From: Bryobacterales bacterium
GTDB taxonomy: Bacteria; Acidobacteriota; Terriglobia; Bryobacterales; Bryobacteraceae
Assembly (NCBI GenBank): GCA_026129915.1
Contig: JAHCHD010000001.1
Location: forward strand, 1 to 64,000
Length of the DNA stretch: 64,000 bases
Reading direction: 5' to 3'
The notes under the pieces were generated by a model. That model was not told the DNA's origin. It saw only the letters and a list, made by a program, of their open reading frames with translations, and did no database searches. Position numbers and translations under genes: made by a program. Shown piece by piece: positions 16,353-63,016 of this stretch. How positions within the stretch are numbered: the stretch's first letter is position 1; each line of letters opens with the position of its first letter.

Positions 16353-17063
16353 TTACCGGGGCTCGGCGGGCAGCATGGCGCGGAGGGATTCCAGGCTGAG
16401 GTGACCGGTGTAGATAGCCATACCTAGGGCGGCGTGGACGTTCATGTCCAGAAGGGACTTCACGTCGTCGAGGGTGGTGATGCCGCCCGCGGCGGTGATT
16501 TCTTTGCTGGTGGCGGCGCGCAATTGCCGGAACCACGCGAGGTCAGTCCCCTGCATCATGCCCTCTTTGTCGACGTACGTGCACAGGAAGCCGGAACAGT
16601 AGGGCTCCAATTGCCGCAGAACGTCGGCCGCCTGCAGGCTGGTGCTTTCCTTCCAGCCGCGGACGACGATGCGGCCGTGTTTGGAATCGACGGCAATCGT
16701 GATGCGCTCAGGCCCTACGCGCGCGGCAAGCTGGCTGAGGAAATCTTCGCGGATGCCATCGGCGCTAAAGGCAGCAGTTCCCACGATGATGCGGTCTGCG
16801 CCCAGAGTGGCCAGCGTTTCCGCGCGCTCCACGGTGCGGACGCCGCCGCCCACGCGGATGCGGGCGCGAGGAGCGAGGTCCTCCACGATGGCGTTGTTCT
16901 CGCCCTGCTCCATGGCAGCGTCGAGGTCGATTACCTGGATTACGGGGAAGCCGGTGAACCGCCGCAGCATGACGTGGGGGTGCTCGCCCTCCAGCGCTTT
17001 TTCGCGGCCCTGGACGAGTTGCACTACTTTACCGTCCAGCAGGTCAATACAGGGAATAATCAC
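16353..17063 (-). CDS. hisA: ProFAR isomerase HisA
   Basis: The 236-residue phosphoribosyl-formimino-AICAR-P isomerase, a (beta/alpha)8 barrel catalysing the fourth step of histidine synthesis. The two catalytic Asp are Asp7 (IPCIDLLDG) and Asp126 (ITIAVDSKHG). The phosphate-binding loops RVGGGVRT and TAAGGITT mark the two half-barrels. Length is normal. It is the last his gene, 27 bases after hisF, at the end of a tightly packed operon. Confidence 0.95.
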   Translation of the reverse strand: MIIPCIDLLDGKVVQLVQGREKALEGEHPHVMLRRFTGFPVIQVIDLDAAMEQGENNAIVEDLAPRARIRVGGGVRTVERAETLATLGADRIIVGTAAFSADGIREDFLSQLAARVGPERITIAVDSKHGRIVVRGWKESTSLQAADVLRQLEPYCSGFLCTYVDKEGMMQGTDLAWFRQLRAATSKEITAAGGITTLDDVKSLLDMNVHAALGMAIYTGHLSLESLRAMLPAEPR

Positions 17064-17090
17064 ATGGGCTCCGTTTTGTGCGAGACGCGG

Positions 17091-17873
17091 CTACTCGCTG
17101 GGGACTGGCACCGCGGGGCGCACCGGCACGCCCTGCGCTTCGAGGTATTGCTTCAGGTCACTCACCGTGTAGGTGCCGTAGTGGAAGATGGAGGCCGCCA
17201 GGGCCGCATCCGCCTTGCCCTCCGTAAGGACGCGTGCAAAATCCTCTGGCTTTCCCGCGCCGCCTGAGGCAATCACGGGGATGCGCGTGGCCTCAGAGAC
17301 GGCGGCGGTGAGGGCGCAATCGAAGCCCTCCTGGACGCCGTCGCGATCCATGGAAGTAAGCAGGATCTCCCCGGCGCCGAGGGCCTCGCCGCGCTGCGCC
17401 CATTCCACACAATCGATGCCGGTGTCGTCGCGCCCGCCACGCACATAGATCGTCCAACCCTCGGCTTGTTTGCGGCGCTTGGCGTCGATGGCCAGTACGA
17501 CTGCCTGTGCTCCGAACTCCTGGCTGAGTTCGGTGATGAGCTCGGGGCGGCGAATCGCGGCGGTATTCACGCTGACTTTGTCAGCGCCCGCCATCAGAAT
17601 CGCGCGGGCATCGGCCACGCTGCGGATGCCGCCGCCCACCGTAAGGGGGATAAACACCTTGCGGGCCGTGCGGGCCACAACGTCAGCCATGATGTCGCGG
17701 GCATCGGATGAGGCAGTGATGTCCAGAAACACCAGCTCGTCGGCGCCTTGCTGGTTGTAGCGGTCCGCAAGTTCCACCGGGTCGCCCGCGTCACGCAGGT
17801 TTACGAAATTTACACCCTTCACCACTCGTCCGGCGGTAACGTCGAGGCACGGAATGATTCGGCGTGCGAGCAT
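17091..17873 (-). CDS. hisF: Imidazole glycerol phosphate synthase, cyclase subunit HisF
   Basis: A 260-residue barrel subunit that uses ammonia from HisH to close the imidazole ring, giving IGP and AICAR. The general acid/base pair Asp11 ([10 protein letters not shown]) and Asp130 (VLAIDAKR) is in place, as are the phosphate loops LTVGGGIRS and IASGGAGK. The start at 17873 overlaps the hisH stop (TGATG). The longer frame to 17999 is only read-through into hisH. The tight coupling suits a 1:1 HisHF complex. Confidence 0.95.
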
Positions 17874-18469
17874 CAGGCAAACTCCACAAAGTTCTTCACC
17901 ACTTGCATGCCGATGGGTCCGGATTTCTCCGGATGGAACTGGACCCCATAGACGTTGCTTTCTTCGAGCAACGCGGTATACGGCACGCCATATTCGCATC
18001 GCGCACCGGTGGCGCCAATGATGGGCGCATAGTAGCTGTGGGCGAAGTATACGTACGGCCTGGGCGCCACTCCTCGCAGCAACAAACAGTCCTTCGTCGG
18101 CACAATCTCGTTCCAGCCCATGTGGGGCACGCGCAAGTCCCTCGAAAAGCGCTTGACGATTCCGGGAAAGAGATGGAAGCCCTCCACCGCCTCGTCCTCT
18201 TCACTGCGCGTAAACAGGCTCTGCATGCCAATGCAGATGCCGAGAAAGGGGATCCCCTGGCGGATACGAGCGATTAGCGGCTCGCGCAAACCCGAACTCA
18301 CCAGAGAACGCATGATCTGGCCGTAATGGCCGACGCCGGGAAGGATGATCTTCCCTGCCGCCTCGATCTGCGCTTCGGTACGGGCGATTTCGTACGGACA
18401 GCCAATCGCGCCCAGTGTATTCTCCACGCTGCGCAAATTGCCCGCACCGTAGTCGAGGATGCTGATCAT
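17873..18469 (-). CDS. hisH: Imidazole glycerol phosphate synthase, glutaminase subunit HisH
   Basis: A 198-residue class-I glutamine amidotransferase that supplies ammonia to HisF. The triad is Cys79 in FLGICIGMQ, His179 and Glu181 in VQFHPEKSG. The oxyanion strand PGVGHYG is normal. Its start overlaps the hisB stop as ATGA and its stop overlaps the hisF start, so synthesis of both synthase subunits is coupled. Confidence 0.95.
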
Positions 18470-19053
18470 AGGAGACCCTTGGTGGAAGGAAGCTGATCCT
18501 TCAGCCGCTCATCGGTTGAGCAGGCATAACGCATGGCCCGCGCGAAGCCTTTGAAGATGGCCTCCACCTTGTGGTGATTAGAGCGCCCGTACATCGTCTT
18601 CAGATGCAAGTTGGCAAGCGCATGGGCGGTGAAGCCGTGGAAGAAGTCTTCGAGCAATTCGCTTTGCAGATCCCCCACCATACGAGTTCGTACTTTGTCG
18701 TCAAGCACGAGGTAGGGGCGCCCGCCGAGATCGACAGCCACCACGGCGAGTGTCTCGTCCATCGCCTGCACGAAGTAGCCGGCACGATTGATGCCCTTGC
18801 GATCCCCCAGTGCCTGATTGAACAGTTGCCCAAGCACAATGCCCACGTCTTCCACCGTGTGGTGCTGGTCAACATCCAGGTCGCCGGTGGCGCGCAAGGC
18901 AAGGTCAAAGGCGCCGTGCTTGGTGAACAGCTCCAGCATGTGATCAAGGAAGCGCACGCCGGTGCTGACTTCGTAGGAGCCTGTACCTTCAATCGTAAGA
19001 CTGGCCTGAATTTGTGTTTCGCGTGTAATGCGGTTGATATCCGCGGCTCTCAT
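18466..19053 (-). CDS. hisB: Imidazoleglycerol-phosphate dehydratase HisB
   Basis: A 195-residue monofunctional dehydratase converting IGP to imidazole-acetol phosphate. The metal-binding motifs of the family are visible: [26 protein letters not shown] and the C-terminal [26 protein letters not shown]. It lacks the N-terminal histidinol-phosphatase domain of the bifunctional enterobacterial HisB. This makes the adjacent HAD protein, overlapping by ATGA, the natural candidate for that step. Confidence 0.95.
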
Positions 19054-19748
19054 GAAATTACTCCTGGCTCGCCATAGAGCGCCGGCTCGAGTTCGTTGAG
19101 ATTGGCAGCCACGGCTTCCGCGCCTTCCGCGATCAAGAGGGCGCGAAGTTCCGCTGCCCGGGGATTCCCGGGGTCTGCCACTCCCAGAAATCGCACACCG
19201 GCGGCTTTCGCGGATCGCGCGTCGTCTACCGTGTCGCCCACGTAGGTGAGTGCTTCACCGGGATACATCGCAGCGATGCGCTGCAGCCCTTCCGGGTGGG
19301 GCTTCTTGTGGGCGACGTCTTCATCACCCAACACCCCCTGAAACACCACCGTGGGCGCAAATCGCTGGAGGGTGTGGAAAGCCTCGGCGCGCTCGCGTCC
19401 GGTGAAGATGGCCAGGCGGAAGCGCAATTCCAGGTCTTCGAGCAAACCTCCGCGGGGAATCCACTGCTCGCGCTGGATTAACCCGTTGAAGTTATTCCCC
19501 AGGAAGATCCGCTGGAAATGCTCGACTACGTTGTCGTACTCGACCGCAACTTCGCGGTCGAGGCAGATGCGATGGCTTAGCGCCCAGTCGTTGTTCCAGC
19601 CGCCTGCGTTTTTGTAGTCCTGGATTTCACCTGGGTTTACGGGCATACCCGTGAAGTGCTCCACCGTTTGGCGGATGGCCTCCCGGTAGGAGGCAGTTAC
19701 GTCCACCAGGACGCCATCCATGTCAAAGACGATGACGCCTTCGGTCAT
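19050..19748 (-). CDS. HAD-superfamily hydrolase embedded in the his operon, candidate histidinol-phosphatase
   Basis: A 232-residue HAD subfamily IA phosphatase. Motif I is [10 protein letters not shown] (Asp9 nucleophile, Asp11 acid), motif II is AIFTGR, motif III the Lys in HKKPHPEG, and motif [19 protein letters not shown] helical cap (about 20-100, with NAGGWNNDW) lies after motif I; this cap type matches the HAD IA group found beside his genes in several phyla. It overlaps hisC upstream and hisB downstream by ATGA, so it is an integral his operon member. No other histidinol-phosphatase is in the operon, which supports this role; that is inference, not shown by sequence alone. Confidence 0.8.
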
Positions 19749-20821
19749 GCCAGCACCTCGCGCAGGGAGGTAAGAAATCGAGTCATTTGCTCGCGGGTGC
19801 CGATGGTGACACGCACGGCGCCTGGAATCTCATGGCTGCGGTCGCGCACCAGAATTCCCTTCGCTCGCAAGCCCTCTACAACTTTCCGGGAGCGGTCGCC
19901 GAACTGGATCAGCAGGAAGTTGCCATCGCTTGCAAAGTAAGGCAGGTGCAACTTGTCGAGGCCCACCTCAGTGAGTTCCCGGGCGGCCAAGACTTCCGTG
20001 ACGTAACGCGTTACGAAGTCCTGGTCCTGGATGGCCACGCGGGCCGCCGCCGCACCGACGGCATTGACGCTATAGGGTGACTGGCCCTTGCGCAGGAAAG
20101 CGACGTTGGCAGGCTGCGTAAACAGGCAGCCCACACGCAGCCCCGCCAAGCCGTATACCTTCGAGAATGTGCGTGAAACGAGCAGGTGCGGGTAGTCCTT
20201 GATGAGCGGAAGCGCGGTCACGCCGGAGAACTCGAAATAGGCTTCGTCGATAAGCACCATCGCGTGCGTGGCCCGTTCCAGAATCCGTACGATGGCGTGA
20301 CGGGTGATTCCGCCCCCAGTGGGGTTGTTGGGGTTCGCCAGCATCACCAGCCTGGTGTTTCTGGAAATGGTTTCCAGCATCTGTTCCAGCGGAAATGCCA
20401 GCGTGTCTGGGTTGAAGTCCAGTTCGTAGACCTCTGCGCCGGCCACCTGGGCGTAGAAGCGGTACATGGCGTAGGAGGGCCGCATCAGAAGGCACTCCTG
20501 ATTGACATCGAGGTAGGTGTTCACCACAAGCTGGATGGCCTCGTCGGTGCCGTTGGTCAGCACCAGTTCCTCTTCCGAGACGCCGAAAAATGCAGCCAGT
20601 TCCGTGCGAGCCGCCGCGTACTCAGGGTAGCTGGGCAACTGGGCGGCGGAGAACCCTTGCTGCAAGAATTCGGTCACCCGCGGTGAGCAACCCACCGTGT
20701 TTTCGTTGAAGTCCAGGCGCAGCAGGTCAGTGCGCCCCGCCGTGGGAGGACGATACGGCTCCATGCGCTCGATCGCGCGGCGCGGGCGCACGTGCGCACC
20801 ATTCTTAAAAGTCTCAGACAT
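19745..20821 (-). CDS. hisC: Histidinol-phosphate aminotransferase HisC
   Basis: A 358-residue fold-type I PLP aminotransferase converting imidazole-acetol phosphate to histidinol phosphate. Markers are RLDFNENTVGCSP, LTNGTDEAI, the ANPNNPTGG loop, VLIDEAYFEF, the PLP lysine Lys221 in SRTFSKVYGLAGLRVG, and the C-terminal Arg in AVRVTIGT. I start at 20821, overlapping the hisD stop by eight bases; the frame to 20848 adds nothing recognised. Confidence 0.93.
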   Translation of the reverse strand: MSETFKNGAHVRPRRAIERMEPYRPPTAGRTDLLRLDFNENTVGCSPRVTEFLQQGFSAAQLPSYPEYAAARTELAAFFGVSEEELVLTNGTDEAIQLVVNTYLDVNQECLLMRPSYAMYRFYAQVAGAEVYELDFNPDTLAFPLEQMLETISRNTRLVMLANPNNPTGGGITRHAIVRILERATHAMVLIDEAYFEFSGVTALPLIKDYPHLLVSRTFSKVYGLAGLRVGCLFTQPANVAFLRKGQSPYSVNAVGAAAARVAIQDQDFVTRYVTEVLAARELTEVGLDKLHLPYFASDGNFLLIQFGDRSRKVVEGLRAKGILVRDRSHEIPGAVRVTIGTREQMTRFLTSLREVLA

Positions 20822-22064
20822 CGAAGCGTACCTCCGCGGAGCGCGCATGGGCCTCGAGGCCCTCGGCCCGGGCCAGTGTAGTGACGGCGGGCAGGATACG
20901 TTCCAGCCCTTGGCGCGACAACTCCTGCACTGAAATCACCTTCACGTAGTCCGCGGCGGAAAGACCGCCGCGCAGTCGCGCCGCGCCGTTGGTGGGGAGG
21001 ACGTGGTTTGGGCCGGCGGCGTAATCGCCGGCCGCCTCAGGGCTATGCGGCCCCACGAAGACGCTGCCCGCGTGACGGATCTTTTTCAGAAGTGAACGTG
21101 ACGGGATACTCAGGTGCTCTGGTGCAAACTCATTGGAAAGCTCCACCGCCTGGTCAAGGGAGTCCACCACCAGGATGGCGCTGTTCTTCTGGATGGCCAA
21201 GCGCGCGGTGCCAGCCGTGGGCAAGGTCTCAAGCTGCGTGGCAATCTCAGCGGCCACCGCCTCAGCCAGTGAACGGGAGGGGGTTAGCAGAATGGCGCTT
21301 GCGTCGGTATCGTGCTCCGCTTGCGCCAGCATGTCGGCAGCCAGGAAGCGAGGGTTACCCTCCGCGGCAATCAGGAGGATCTCAGTGGGCCCAGCCACAA
21401 AGTCGATGCCCACTTCGCCCGCCAGGAGCTTCTTCGCCGCGGCTACATAGATGCTGCCTGGGCCCACGATGCGGTCTGCCCTGGGTACAGTGCGGGTGCC
21501 GAAGGCAAAGGCCGCGATGGCGTGTGCGCCGCCCATCTGGAATACATGCGAAACGCCCAACAAATGCGCGGTGCCGAAGATCTCGTCCACCGCCCGGGGA
21601 GTGGCCGCACATACCGTAGGGACCCCCGCCACCTGCGCGGGAATTGCGGTCATCAGCAGCGTGGAGGGCAGCGGGTAGCGGCCGGACGGGATGTATGCCG
21701 CCACTGTGTCGAGCGGTCGCACAATCTGCCCGAGTGCCACGCCCTCAGCAACCTGTTGCTTGCGTTCCGCTGGCAGTTGCATCCTGGCATAGGCACGGAT
21801 GTTCGCGGAAGCCACTTTCACGGCGCTACGAAATTCACGGCCTAGCCGTTTTGCGGCCGCTTGACGTTCCTTCGCCGGCACCGCCACGCTCTTCCGTTCC
21901 AGCCCGTCGAACTTGCGCGCATACTCCATTAGCGCCTTGTCGCCGCGTTTCCGTACGTCCTCCAGGATGGGGCGCACAACGGCCTCGGCCTCTTCCAGCC
22001 GGGCTGCCTTGCGCCGCAACAGGCGCTTGGCCTGCGAGGCCTCCAGGATCCGAATGATTGCCAT
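20814..22064 (-). CDS. hisD: Histidinol dehydrogenase HisD
   Basis: A 416-residue zinc enzyme making the last two NAD-linked oxidations, histidinol to histidine. Recognisable blocks are YIPSGRYPLPSTLLMTAIPAQVAGV, MGGAHAIAAFAFGT, VGPGSIYVAAAKKLL, DFVAGPTEILLIA, DMLAQAEHDTDASAILLT, NEFAPEHLSI and AGPNHVLPTNGAAR. These contain the Zn and substrate ligands. The length is normal. It follows hisG after 36 bases and overlaps hisC. Confidence 0.95.
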   Translation of the reverse strand: MAIIRILEASQAKRLLRRKAARLEEAEAVVRPILEDVRKRGDKALMEYARKFDGLERKSVAVPAKERQAAAKRLGREFRSAVKVASANIRAYARMQLPAERKQQVAEGVALGQIVRPLDTVAAYIPSGRYPLPSTLLMTAIPAQVAGVPTVCAATPRAVDEIFGTAHLLGVSHVFQMGGAHAIAAFAFGTRTVPRADRIVGPGSIYVAAAKKLLAGEVGIDFVAGPTEILLIAAEGNPRFLAADMLAQAEHDTDASAILLTPSRSLAEAVAAEIATQLETLPTAGTARLAIQKNSAILVVDSLDQAVELSNEFAPEHLSIPSRSLLKKIRHAGSVFVGPHSPEAAGDYAAGPNHVLPTNGAARLRGGLSAADYVKVISVQELSRQGLERILPAVTTLARAEGLEAHARSAEVRFDV

Positions 22065-22100: not shown

Positions 22101-22973
22101 CTACACCACAATCTTATTGAGGGGATACTCCACGATGCCCTGCGCACCGGCTTCCTTTAGCCGCGGAATGATGGAGCGCACGGTAACTTCCTCCACGATC
22201 GTGTTAATGGCTACCCATGCGTCATCACTAAGGCTTGAGATTGTGGGTTGCTTCAGCGCCGGCAGCACCTCGAGTACGCGCGACAGGTTGGCGCGCTCCA
22301 CGTTCATCATGAGCCCCACTTTGCTAAGAGCGTTGATGGCTCCTTCGAGCAGCAGGAGCAGATCCTGCAGTTTCCGGTGTTTCCACTCGTCCTGCCAGGC
22401 AGCGGTATTGGCAATAAATTGCGTGTTCGATTCGAGCATCGTCTCCACAATGCGCAACTTGTTGGCGCGGAGCGACGACCCGGTCTCCGTCACTTCCACA
22501 ATCGCGTCGGCCAAGTCTGGCGGCTTCACTTCCGTCGCGCCCCAACTGAACTCCACCTGGGCCGTTACCCCGTGCGACGCCAGCCAGCGCTTGGTGGTAT
22601 TCACCAGTTCGGTAGCCACGCGCTTGCCTTCGAGATCTTTCACCCCGTGGATGTCTGATGATTCCGGCACCGCCAGCACCCAGCGCACATTACGGAAGCT
22701 CTGCTTCGAATACACGAGGTTGCTGAGCACCTCGACTTTCGCATCGTTTTCCTGCACCCAGTCGTGCCCGGTGAGCCCAGCGTCAAGGATGCCGTTCTCC
22801 ACGTAGCGCGCCATCTCCTGGGCGCGAATCAGCATGCACTGGATCTCAGAGTCATCAATCCCCGGATAGTAGGACCGTGAATTCACGGTGATGTTGAAGC
22901 CTGCTCGCCGGAACAGGTCCACCGTCGCATCCTGCAGACTACCCTTGGGAATCCCCAGCTTCAGTACGCTCAC
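22101..22973 (-). CDS. hisG: ATP phosphoribosyltransferase HisG, long form
   Basis: A 290-residue first enzyme of the pathway (PRPP + ATP). The N-terminal lobes show [19 protein letters not shown], and a PRPP-type loop [13 protein letters not shown]. The C-terminal 75 residues ([44 protein letters not shown]) form the ACT-like domain of long-form HisG, used for histidine feedback inhibition, so no HisZ partner is needed. I place the start at the GTG at 22973, which overlaps the hisI stop as GTGA. The first in-frame ATG is far upstream inside hisI and cannot be right. Confidence 0.93.
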
Positions 22974-23350
22974 TGCTTGCCTCCATACACCGCGGACTCG
23001 TCGTAGACCTTGTCGTCCACCACTTTCCATTCCACGTCGTCGAGCTTGCGGAAGAAACAGCTCTCGTAACCCTCGTGGCAAACTCCGGGGCCATGCGCCA
23101 CGACCTTCAGCACCAGGCTGTCGACGTCACAATCCGTGTAGATTTCCTTTACTTCGAGGCGATGCCCGGAAGTCTCGCCCTTCATCCACAACTTGTTGCG
23201 GGTGCGGCTGAAGAAGGTGGCGTAGCCGGTGTCGACTGTCTTTCGCCAGGCCTCTTCATTCATGAAGCCGAGCATCAGGATTCGCCCGCTGGCTGCATCC
23301 TGAATGATAGCGGGCACCAGGCCGTCCAATTTTCCAAAATCGAGTTTCAT
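22970..23350 (-). CDS. hisI: Phosphoribosyl-AMP cyclohydrolase HisI
   Basis: A 126-residue zinc-dependent cyclohydrolase. Family blocks are visible: [49 protein letters not shown], the Mg-binding DCDVDSLV, and Zn ligands in [16 protein letters not shown]. It has no fused HisE (PR-ATP pyrophosphatase) domain and no hisE is in this operon, so that gene must lie elsewhere. The start at 23350 is chosen because homology begins there; the longer frame reads back through the attenuator terminator. It is the first structural gene after the leader. Confidence 0.93.
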
Positions 23351-23390: not shown

Positions 23391-23422
23391 TCAAAGAAAA
23401 AGCCCGCCTTGTTCAGGCGGGC
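23391..23422 (-). terminator. Intrinsic terminator of the his attenuator
   Basis: On the minus strand an eight-pair GC stem (GCCCGCCT / AGGCGGGC, plus positions 23402-23422, five-base loop) is followed directly by TTTTTCTTT. It lies between the His-codon leader peptide and hisI, 41 bases before the hisI start. The upstream GCGGGC within leader codons can pair with the GCCCGC of the terminator arm, giving an alternative antiterminator. A second small hairpin (AATCAG/CTGATT) lies between the two. Confidence 0.85.
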
Positions 23423-23448
23423 CGTGAACTGGAAATCAGGAATCTGAT

Positions 23449-23520
23449 TTAGACACACGCCCGCGCACACGGATGGCGATGATGCCTATGGCTAGCAACC
23501 GTGTTCCGTGGACGCCGCAT
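23449..23520 (-). CDS. hisL: his operon leader peptide (attenuator, four His codons in six)
   Basis: A 23-codon frame on the minus strand, ATG at 23520 and TAA at 23449, with an in-frame TGA three codons before the ATG. Its centre reads S-H-R-H-H-R-H-P, four CAT codons within six (plus positions about 23473-23490). It ends 27 bases before the terminator stem. Ribosome stalling at these codons under histidine shortage would free downstream sequence to pair with the terminator arm, the classic attenuation logic of enteric his operons. No strong Shine-Dalgarno sequence is visible. The coincidence of His run, terminator and operon position makes the call strong despite the small size. Confidence 0.85.
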   Translation of the reverse strand: MRRPRNTVASHRHHRHPCARACV

Positions 23521-23669
23521 AAAGAATCAGAATACCAGAATTGCGCGGGTGCTTCGGAGCTCGCTTCGGCGTTCGGCCTCCCGGCTGCCCTCCCGTGCTT
23601 CTCCTCCCAGGGTAAGCTGGAGATACCTGGACGCGGGTTACCGGCCCGCGTGGTTACTGAAGGAGCTTT

Positions 23670-24413
23670 ATGCAGCGAATATCACGCAGACATGCGCTTG
23701 CCGCCACACTTGCCCCGCTTGCCCTGCCTGCCCAGGCCGATGCCCAATCTGATTCCGCGGTCCTTTTGGAATGGCGAGACCTTTTCAATGGCCGCGACCT
23801 TTCGGGCTGGGTGAACGTAAATTGCGCCGAGGATACCTGGAGCGTACGTAACGGTTTGCTGGTTTGCACTGGCCACCCCATCGGAGTGATGCGGAGTGAC
23901 CGCCAGTACGAAAATTTCCTGCTTCATATCGAGTGGATGCATCTTGAGCCCGGCGGCAACTCTGGCGTCTTCATCTGGAGCAACGCCGTGCCCGGTGAGC
24001 GCAATCGCCTACCGAATGGCGTGGAGGTGCAGATGCTTGATCTCGACTGGGTGAAACTCAACACCAAGCCCGGACAGGAACCGCCCCCCGTTGCTTATGT
24101 TCACGGGGAGCTCTTTGGTGTGGGCGGCGTGGAGACCAGCCCCGACAATCCTCGCGGCACGCGGAGCAAGTCCATTGAGAACCGGTGCCTGGGGCGTGGC
24201 GAATGGAACACTTACGTCGTTTCGGCGGTGGATGGAGTGGTAAAGCTTTCGGTGAATGGGAAGTTCGTGAACGGCGTCTCAGAGGCTACCCAGAAGAAAG
24301 GCTATCTTTGCATGGAATCCGAGGGCGCCGAGATTCACTTTCGCAAGGTTCGCATTCTTGAGTTGCCGCCTGGAGTGACTGACGCATCGCAGGTTGCGCC
24401 ACTGTTGGGTTGA
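23670..24413 (+). CDS. Exported DUF1080 (3-keto-disaccharide hydrolase-like) protein
   Basis: A 247-residue protein with a twin-arginine-like signal ([23 protein letters not shown]). The rest is a single DUF1080 concanavalin-like sandwich: [105 protein letters not shown]. The family includes 3-keto-glycoside hydrolases and is expanded in soil Acidobacteriota and Planctomycetes. It is transcribed away from the his operon with a 149-base shared gap. The substrate is unknown. Confidence 0.85.
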
Positions 24414-61528: not shown

Positions 61529-63016
61529 ATGACATTCCAATCCTATTCAACCGGCACAGGTTACGACGAGTACTTTGAATGCACAGGCACGCCCCGCATT
61601 GGCATCACCGGTCTGGTGCAGGCCATCAGCAATTTGGGTGAGCACGAATTGCGGCGACGGCAACAGGTGGCTGAGCGCGCGCTGTTGCATACCGGCATCA
61701 CCTTCCAGGTGTATAGCGACCGCGCGGGGCTGGAACGCATCTTCCCCCTGGATCTCATCCCGCGGGTGGTGCTGCCCGGGGAATGGCAGTGGATCGAAAA
61801 GGGGTTGAAACAGCGCATCTTCGCGTTGAACCTTTTCCTGCAGGACCTCTACGGCGATCGCAAGATTCTTCGCGACAATGTCATCCCTCCGCACGTGATC
61901 GAGAGCGCCAAGTGCTTTCGCGCCGCCTGCGCTGGCATCCAGCCACGGCATGGCATCTGGTGCCATATCACGGGCACAGACCTGGTTAGGCACAGCGATG
62001 GCCAGCTTTATGTGCTTGAGGACAATATGCGCTGCCCCTCGGGCGTGTCCTATGTGCTCGAGAACCGCCGCATCATGAAGCGGAGTTTTCCGCGCATCTT
62101 TGAGCGCTTTCCCGTCAGCCCGGTGGACGATTATCCCAGCCGACTGCTGGACCTGCTCCACCACATGGCCCCACCGGACGTCCAGGAACCCACTACGGTG
62201 GTGCTCAGCCCCGGCATTTACAACTCGGCTTATTTTGAGCACAGCTTCCTGGCGCAGCAGATGGGCGTGGAACTTGTGGAAGGCCGCGACCTGGTGGTGA
62301 TGAACGGCCTGGTACACATGCGCACCACCCGCGGGCTGAAACGGGTGGACGTGATCTACCGGCGGATTGACGACGATTTCCTTGACCCTCAGGCCTTCCG
62401 CCCGGACTCAATGATTGGCGTCCCGGGCCTGATGGAGGCGTTCAAGAACGGGCGTGTTTCTCTGGTGAATGCCCCAGGGACGGGTGTGGCTGACGATAAG
62501 GTGGTGTATGCCTACGTGCCCAAGATCATCAAGTACTACTTGGGCGAGGATGCCATCATTCCGAATGTCCCCACCTTCCTTTGCTGGGACGAGAGAGACC
62601 GCGCGTACGTGCTGGCGAATCTCGACAAGCTAGTAGTGAAGGCAGCGAATGAGGCAGGTGGCTACGGCATGATGATTGGTCCACACGCGACAAAGGCTGA
62701 CCATGCCCATTTTGCCGAACTCATTCAGGCCAGCCCGCGCAACTACATCGCCCAGCCCACGCTATCGCTTTCGACGGTGCCCACCACCATTGATGGCGTG
62801 TTTGAGCCACGCCACGTCGACCTTCGGCCTTACATCCTTTATGGGAGAGACATTCATGTGCATCCGGGCGGATTAACCCGCGTTGCGCTGCGCCGGGGCT
62901 CGCTGGTGGTGAATTCATCCCAAGGCGGCGGCAGTAAGGATACGTGGATCTTGAGCGAAGACCCGCCGGAAGTTCTGCCTGTGCCAACTGAGCCTGCCGC
63001 GGAGGCTTTGCGATGA
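61529..63016 (+). CDS. Circularly permuted ATP-grasp protein
   Basis: A 495-residue protein of the permuted ATP-grasp type 2 family (DUF404/DUF407). Blocks include [101 protein letters not shown], and [29 protein letters not shown]-like. It is probably an ATP-dependent ligase making a small peptide or amide; the product is unknown. It is paired with an alpha-E gene (ATGA overlap), as in very many bacteria. ATG 61529 is used; the frame from 61442 is without support. TACACT (61470-61475) may be the -10. Confidence 0.88.

Follow-up and report, generated by a model that had tools for sequence, protein, structure and literature searches.

The DNA upstream of the histidine operon in this acidobacterial sequence (a window of 64,000 nucleotides, by which we mean the whole stretch analysed) raises the question of whether a short, His-rich open reading frame and the hairpin behind it form a switch that controls the operon and, if so, how the ribosome would enter it. 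The His-rich ORF, its conservation, the pairing of the leader end with the terminator arm and the co-variation of the two support ribosome-mediated transcription attenuation, and we regard it as very likely that the locus is such an attenuator of the his operon, with its leader peptide translated from a leaderless transcript.

The operon lies on the minus strand in the order hisI-hisG-hisD-hisC-HAD-hisB-hisH-hisF-hisA. The first structural gene is hisI (phosphoribosyl-AMP cyclohydrolase, 22970..23350; NCBIfam NF000768, 145.9 bits, cutoff 126), followed by hisG (ATP phosphoribosyltransferase, 22101..22970; TIGR00070 and TIGR03455, both above cutoff), and the rest of the operon (hisD, hisC, a HAD-family hydrolase gene, hisB, hisH, hisF and hisA) occupies 16353..22064. 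An NCBIfam cutoff was passed by hisI, hisG, hisD, hisC, hisB, hisH and hisF; the best match of hisA, TIGR00007, was below its cutoff. The HAD-family hydrolase (19050-19748, minus strand), which is found between hisC and hisB here and at the same place in several relatives, has a HAD domain above the Pfam cutoff and a best NCBIfam match, TIGR01548, below cutoff; it may provide histidinol-phosphate phosphatase activity. A hisE gene was not seen within the his operon. The relatives of hisI (60-89% identity) are labelled mostly as Bryobacterales, Bryobacteraceae, Candidatus Solibacter and other Acidobacteria, so that the operon is acidobacterial, as first proposed, and belongs to the order Bryobacterales.

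The leader peptide ORF was located at 23449..23520 on the minus strand, where it runs from an ATG at 23520 through 23 codons to a TAA stop (23451-23449) and encodes MRRPRNTVASHRHHRHPCARACV. The regulatory His codons are found in the run CAT AGG CAT CAT CGC CAT (23473..23490), in which CAT forms four of the six codons. An in-frame TGA is located just 5' of the ATG (23529-23527), and the later leader codons contain GCGGGC (23464-23459), which pairs with the 5' arm of the terminator. Read 5' to 3' on the minus strand, the elements are an extended -10 box, 8 nt, the ATG, the 23-codon ORF, 25 nt and the terminator stem; the stem and T-run (23423-23393) are followed after about 40 nt by the hisI ATG at 23350. 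A direct reading of the strand therefore bears out what the initial annotation had described, namely the 23-codon leader with four CAT in six codons, the upstream in-frame stop, the complementarity of GCGGGC to the terminator arm and the position of leader and terminator just 5' of hisI. A short ORF rich in codons for the end product, placed before a biosynthetic operon, is the arrangement by which amino-acid attenuators are recognised.

A His-rich ORF could also arise by chance. Two ATG ORFs (8-60 aa) with at least four His per 8 codons were found in the window, the second of which, at 61579 on the plus strand, is unrelated. Among random 300-nt stretches, such an ORF occurs in 0.28% of those drawn from the window and in 0.43% of those from loci of the phylum (his leaders included); none was present in 139 stretches taken inside hisI. 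Upstream of hisI it was observed in 94 of 122 distinct regions (77%), and 30% of the 122 contain an ORF with at least six His in 8 codons; against the 0.3-0.4% of the random stretches, the His-rich leader is not explained by chance. The mean is 5.7 His per leader among 97 distinct leaders, in comparisons that use predicted sequences, many of them from MAGs.

Within the same family (f1), 28 of 34 genomes carry at least four His in 8 codons and three more carry three. The initial annotation had named conservation of the His run and stem in relatives as a check, and both were recovered in these genomes and in many other families. Of the remaining three f1 genomes, L008 has a leader truncated by the end of its contig, with HHGHHHPP still readable, and L027 has the -10 box with the leader absent. 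In the third, L041 (genome G005), the -10 box and the terminator are kept in the 210 nt before hisI and the leader ORF between them is gone; its short transcript would always run into the terminator, and the gap may reflect either a genuine deletion or an error of assembly. A TATGCT box was seen in the 210 nt before hisI in L035 (genome G047), followed by a His-containing frame (..RRHAHHG..) with no ATG where one is expected, possibly a decaying leader. Leader and terminator are absent in f3/g35, a genus within the same order (L033, L034, L042, L043, L049, L050 and L056-L059). Several members of this genus share another element (GAGCTTGATATTCTGAGATTCTGG...) upstream of hisI, and here the attenuator has probably been lost with the other element in its place.

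For some 40 additional families, the sequence surrounding hisI was read over about 10-19 kb. At least 17 of the sampled families, nearly all Acidobacteriota, have leaders, and these precede whichever his gene comes first: hisI in f8 (by its position in the class probably Acidobacteriaceae), f20, f29, f38, f49, f51, f81, f4, f6 and f7; hisG in f22, f26, f33 and f72 (hisG-first loci L192, L193, L199 and L207); and hisD in f10 (L180). They also occur in f1, f2 and part of f3. The weaker matches are f6, with three clustered His, and f26 and f33, with no terminator by the criteria used; a possible match in f23 (L186) was left out of the list. No leader was seen in many other families of those sampled around hisI. 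The leader thus tracks the front of the operon rather than one gene, which is the behaviour expected of a regulatory element.

Two loci under other-phylum labels, L110 (Chthoniobacterales) and L135 (Armatimonadetes), also have a His-rich leader ahead of hisI, together with a different terminator to which the leader is complementary; mislabelling or contamination of these MAG contigs is possible. In addition, TTGACA and TATAAA were observed upstream of hisG in L202 and L204 (f54 and f60). The short ORF that follows them in each locus has no His run (MDFVEKYFIKYCFIKSSLHRN and MIGKIEYYIKYCLTKTCLH), and the two ORFs resemble each other.

A feature absent from the initial annotation is that the transcript is predicted to have the leader ATG at its 5' end. 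The extended -10 box, TGG-TATTCT (TGGTATTCT), is located at 23529..23537 (minus strand) and places the predicted start at 23520 or no more than about 1-3 nt away. The 97 leaders were aligned on the best -10 box of each, which in itself biases the result towards TATACT. In this alignment, the T, A and final T were conserved at 99% and the extended TG at 79% and 90%, and the gap between the box (TGnTATACT, mostly TGcTATACT) and the leader start codon measured 8-9 nt in 79 of the 97. A -10 hexamer normally ends 6-8 nt ahead of the transcription start. With the box 8-9 nt before the ATG, the first nucleotide would therefore coincide with the AUG or lie no more than 1-3 nt from it, and the leader peptide is predicted to be leaderless, with its AUG at the 5' end of the transcript. 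In other families, among them L170, L172 and L218, inspection by eye shows a -10 box 8-10 nt upstream of the ATG, preceded at a distance of about 16-17 nt by TTGACA. One published survey takes a TA-like box about 10-12 bp ahead of the start codon as a mark of leaderless bacterial genes (PMC3160421).

The strongest alternative accepts the attenuator and gives it an ordinary leadered transcript, in which transcription would start further upstream, initiation would depend on a Shine-Dalgarno sequence and the -10-like box would be a coincidence. The start codon lies 10-12 nt from the box in a few relatives, and at the window locus the -35 is poor and no sigma-70 consensus promoter was found by scan, all of which would suit such a transcript. 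Against it stand the fixed spacing of the extended -10 in most of the 97 distinct leaders and the weak anti-SD pairing ahead of the leader start codons (median -1.7 kcal/mol, compared with -3.7 before hisI). Furthermore, TGSTATWCT-N8/9-ATG is very rare genome-wide, with four matches in the organism's own 5.28-Mb genome, one of which is the his leader, and none in the reversed control. We consider the leadered transcript improbable and retain the leaderless one.

The related pattern TGCTATACT-N8/9-ATG was found 31 times in 41 genomes of the family and 7 times in the reversed control; eight of the 31 matches are his leaders, three of them new to the set (L230, L243 and L249). An extended -10 box followed after 8-9 nt by an ATG was also seen before long ORFs (L232, L233, L238, L244, L250 and L259), some of which, judged by eye from the first residues, resemble aminoacyl-tRNA synthetases and response regulators. 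This suggests that other genes of the family might also be leaderless. A start of transcription downstream of the leader, which the initial annotation had regarded as evidence against attenuation, is unlikely, since the sole promoter-like element that is conserved precedes the leader ATG. A separate downstream promoter for hisI was considered and rejected because there is too little room 3' of the terminator in many relatives (8-25 nt from terminator to hisI ATG).

The terminator was observed at 23423-23401 (minus strand) as GGCCCGCCT-GAACA-AGGCGGGCT with the T-run next to it. Its 5' arm belongs to strand 3 of the proposed switch (CAC-GGCCCGCCT, 23415..23426), assigned from the terminator scan, the folds and the tests of pairing and co-variation; strand 4 (AGGCGGGCT) and the T-run (TTTTTCTTT), at 23393..23409, form the 3' half of an intrinsic terminator that was found by the scan and recurs as the same element in most relatives. 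Of the eight-pair terminator with T-run described initially, the terminator and the T-run hold and the pair count does not: the stem has nine pairs, counting one G-T and a closing T-A. A few relatives lack an intrinsic terminator between the leader stop and the first gene by the criteria used.

The hairpin could alternatively serve to end an upstream or antisense transcript constitutively, with the His-rich ORF incidental to it. G+C-rich hairpins followed by T are indeed common, and a scan for terminator-like hairpins returned two in 3 kb where 2.9 were expected from shuffles. However, the neighbouring gene (23670-24413, plus strand) is divergent from the his operon and is therefore not transcribed into the terminator, and the His run, the stop-to-terminator spacing (mostly 22-31 nt among relatives) and the complementarity of the last leader codons are all conserved, which makes a constitutive terminator very unlikely. 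A riboswitch or T-box type element that senses histidine or tRNA-His directly is less credible still: some structure is predicted between the stop and the terminator of the window (a AATCAGATTCCTGATT hairpin), yet the window contains no leader family, T-box or riboswitch at the Rfam gathering score, and the conserved features are the codons, start, stop and terminator, with the sequence between stop and terminator short and variable.

The attenuator is further supported by the folding of the leader RNA in its alternative states, a check that the initial annotation had proposed; the ribosome footprints used in these folds are standard assumptions. The antiterminator, strand 2 (GCGGGCGTG, 23456..23464, minus strand), is formed by the last leader codons, 5-13 nt 5' of the stop, which is where a terminating ribosome would cover it. 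The untranslated 128-nt leader is predicted to fold at -52.9 kcal/mol (shuffled mean -39.3, z -3.55) with the terminator formed and strand 1 (23505..23520, minus strand) paired to the end of the ORF; in this minimum-energy fold, a prediction, the partner of strand 1 is the region after the His codons (~23473-23457), and this pairing would allow the terminator to form. A ribosome placed at the stop codon leaves the terminator as the one structure that can still form (-19.2 kcal/mol). When the first His codon is occupied and strand 4 is not yet made, strand 2 pairs with strand 3, GCGGGC...GUG with CAC...GCCCGC (-23.7). A leader strand that is masked at the stop and competes with the terminator is therefore present in both the sequence and its predicted folding. 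When the His codons are masked and all the RNA is present, the terminator is thermodynamically favoured and forms (-32.7 kcal/mol). Antitermination would therefore have to be kinetic, as in classical attenuator models.

The pairing between leader end and terminator arm was compared with shuffled leader ends for 95 leaders. The mean z was -1.8, with z below -1 in 73% of them, and in about a quarter of the leaders the antiterminator pairing is little above shuffled. The terminator arm is usually GCCCGCC, so most of this excess is explained by shared ancestry. In the 29 cases with unusual arms, the arm tends to pair better with its own leader than with other leaders, at a mean rank of 0.34 against 0.5 expected (KS p = 0.0008, uncorrected for relatedness). 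As examples of compensatory change, we observed CCCGGC / GCCGGG in f4 (L037), CCCGCTGACA / TGTCAGCGG in L170, GCCCGCTGAC with TGTCAGCGG in f8, GCCCGCTGACAG with GGTCAGTGGGC in f6 (L226), and both CCCTCCGG / CCGGAGGG and GCCCTCCGGAG with CCGGAGGG in f10 (L180). A changed terminator arm thus tends to be accompanied by changed leader codons. The C-termini of the peptides differ by family, with RRA or ARACV in f1 and NVSAE or SVLAAVSG in f8, which is consistent with selection on the RNA.

From these features we infer a switch in which RNA polymerase would start at or a few nucleotides from the leader AUG, at the extended -10 box and with no Shine-Dalgarno sequence, and a ribosome would load on the 5' AUG and trail the polymerase. 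If charged tRNA-His is ample, the ribosome would reach the UAA and cover strand 2 (GCGGGCGUG, the last codons); strands 3 and 4 would then form the terminator, 25 nt past the stop, and transcription would end before hisI. If charged tRNA-His is short, the ribosome would stall in the CAT run and leave strand 2 free to pair with strand 3 (CACgGCCCGC) before strand 4 exists, no terminator would form and hisIGDC-HAD-BHFA would be transcribed under the control of histidine. If there is no translation, strands 1 and 2 would pair and the terminator would form.

Attenuation of his by a leader peptide is classical in enterics, where the his leader has a Shine-Dalgarno sequence and more alternating stems. 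The present locus shares with enterobacterial hisL (Rfam His_leader) a His-rich leader peptide, an intrinsic terminator and an alternative pairing gated by the ribosome, but its first gene is hisI, a leaderless leader is predicted for it and a plain three-strand switch is enough. The Rfam His leader covariance model had no match in the window at E up to 5; weak matches to anti-hemB, Trp_leader and suhB rest mainly on the terminator, far below threshold, and were set aside. The initial annotation had called the element a textbook his attenuator matching the enteric type. Its reading as his attenuation with a His-rich leader is supported by the ORF, terminator, conservation and folds; the comparison with enterics needs to be qualified by the predicted leaderless start, the three-strand switch and the lack of an Rfam leader at threshold.

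Leaderless leader-peptide attenuators have been reported in Actinobacteria, at ilvBNC of C. glutamicum (PMC11857589) and as TrpL1, IlvL and LeuL2 of S. lividans (PMC8079986). Their transcription starts at or one nucleotide from the leader start codon, as is predicted for the present locus, with no ribosome-binding site and with a downstream terminator, but they respond to other amino acids (ilv, leu, trp) in another phylum, and a 2005 actinobacterial survey reported no conserved RNA structure ahead of histidine operons (PMC1262725). His leader-peptide attenuators were predicted in Firmicutes (PMC9413887), including hisS/hisZ of bacilli (PMC2965389); as described, they resemble the present element in having His codon runs followed by attenuator or terminator hairpins upstream of his genes, and differ in phylum and in being described for only a few lineages. 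In 2010, leader-peptide systems were known from Proteobacteria, Actinobacteria and, by the finding of a genome-wide screen itself, some bacilli; almost no acidobacterial attenuator predicted by that screen had a known function (PMC2965389). No report of a his attenuator in Acidobacteria was found in the literature searched, and an earlier listing is possible. The mechanism is already known, and as far as we found, its combination of His control, a leaderless leader and Acidobacteriota is undescribed.

Taken across the families, we think it fairly likely that this is an ancient, phylum-wide leaderless His attenuator in Acidobacteriota, in which ribosomes would bind the nascent RNA directly at its 5' AUG. 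The device would have kept its place at the head of the his operon while the first gene changed, and would have preserved its codon bias and complementarity as its sequence diverged. It offers a concrete and testable histidine switch for a large and poorly studied phylum, and the natural losses and compensatory changes within the leader family provide material for studying how attenuators evolve. If leaderless initiation is true, the coupling of transcription and translation can begin at the first nucleotides of the RNA.
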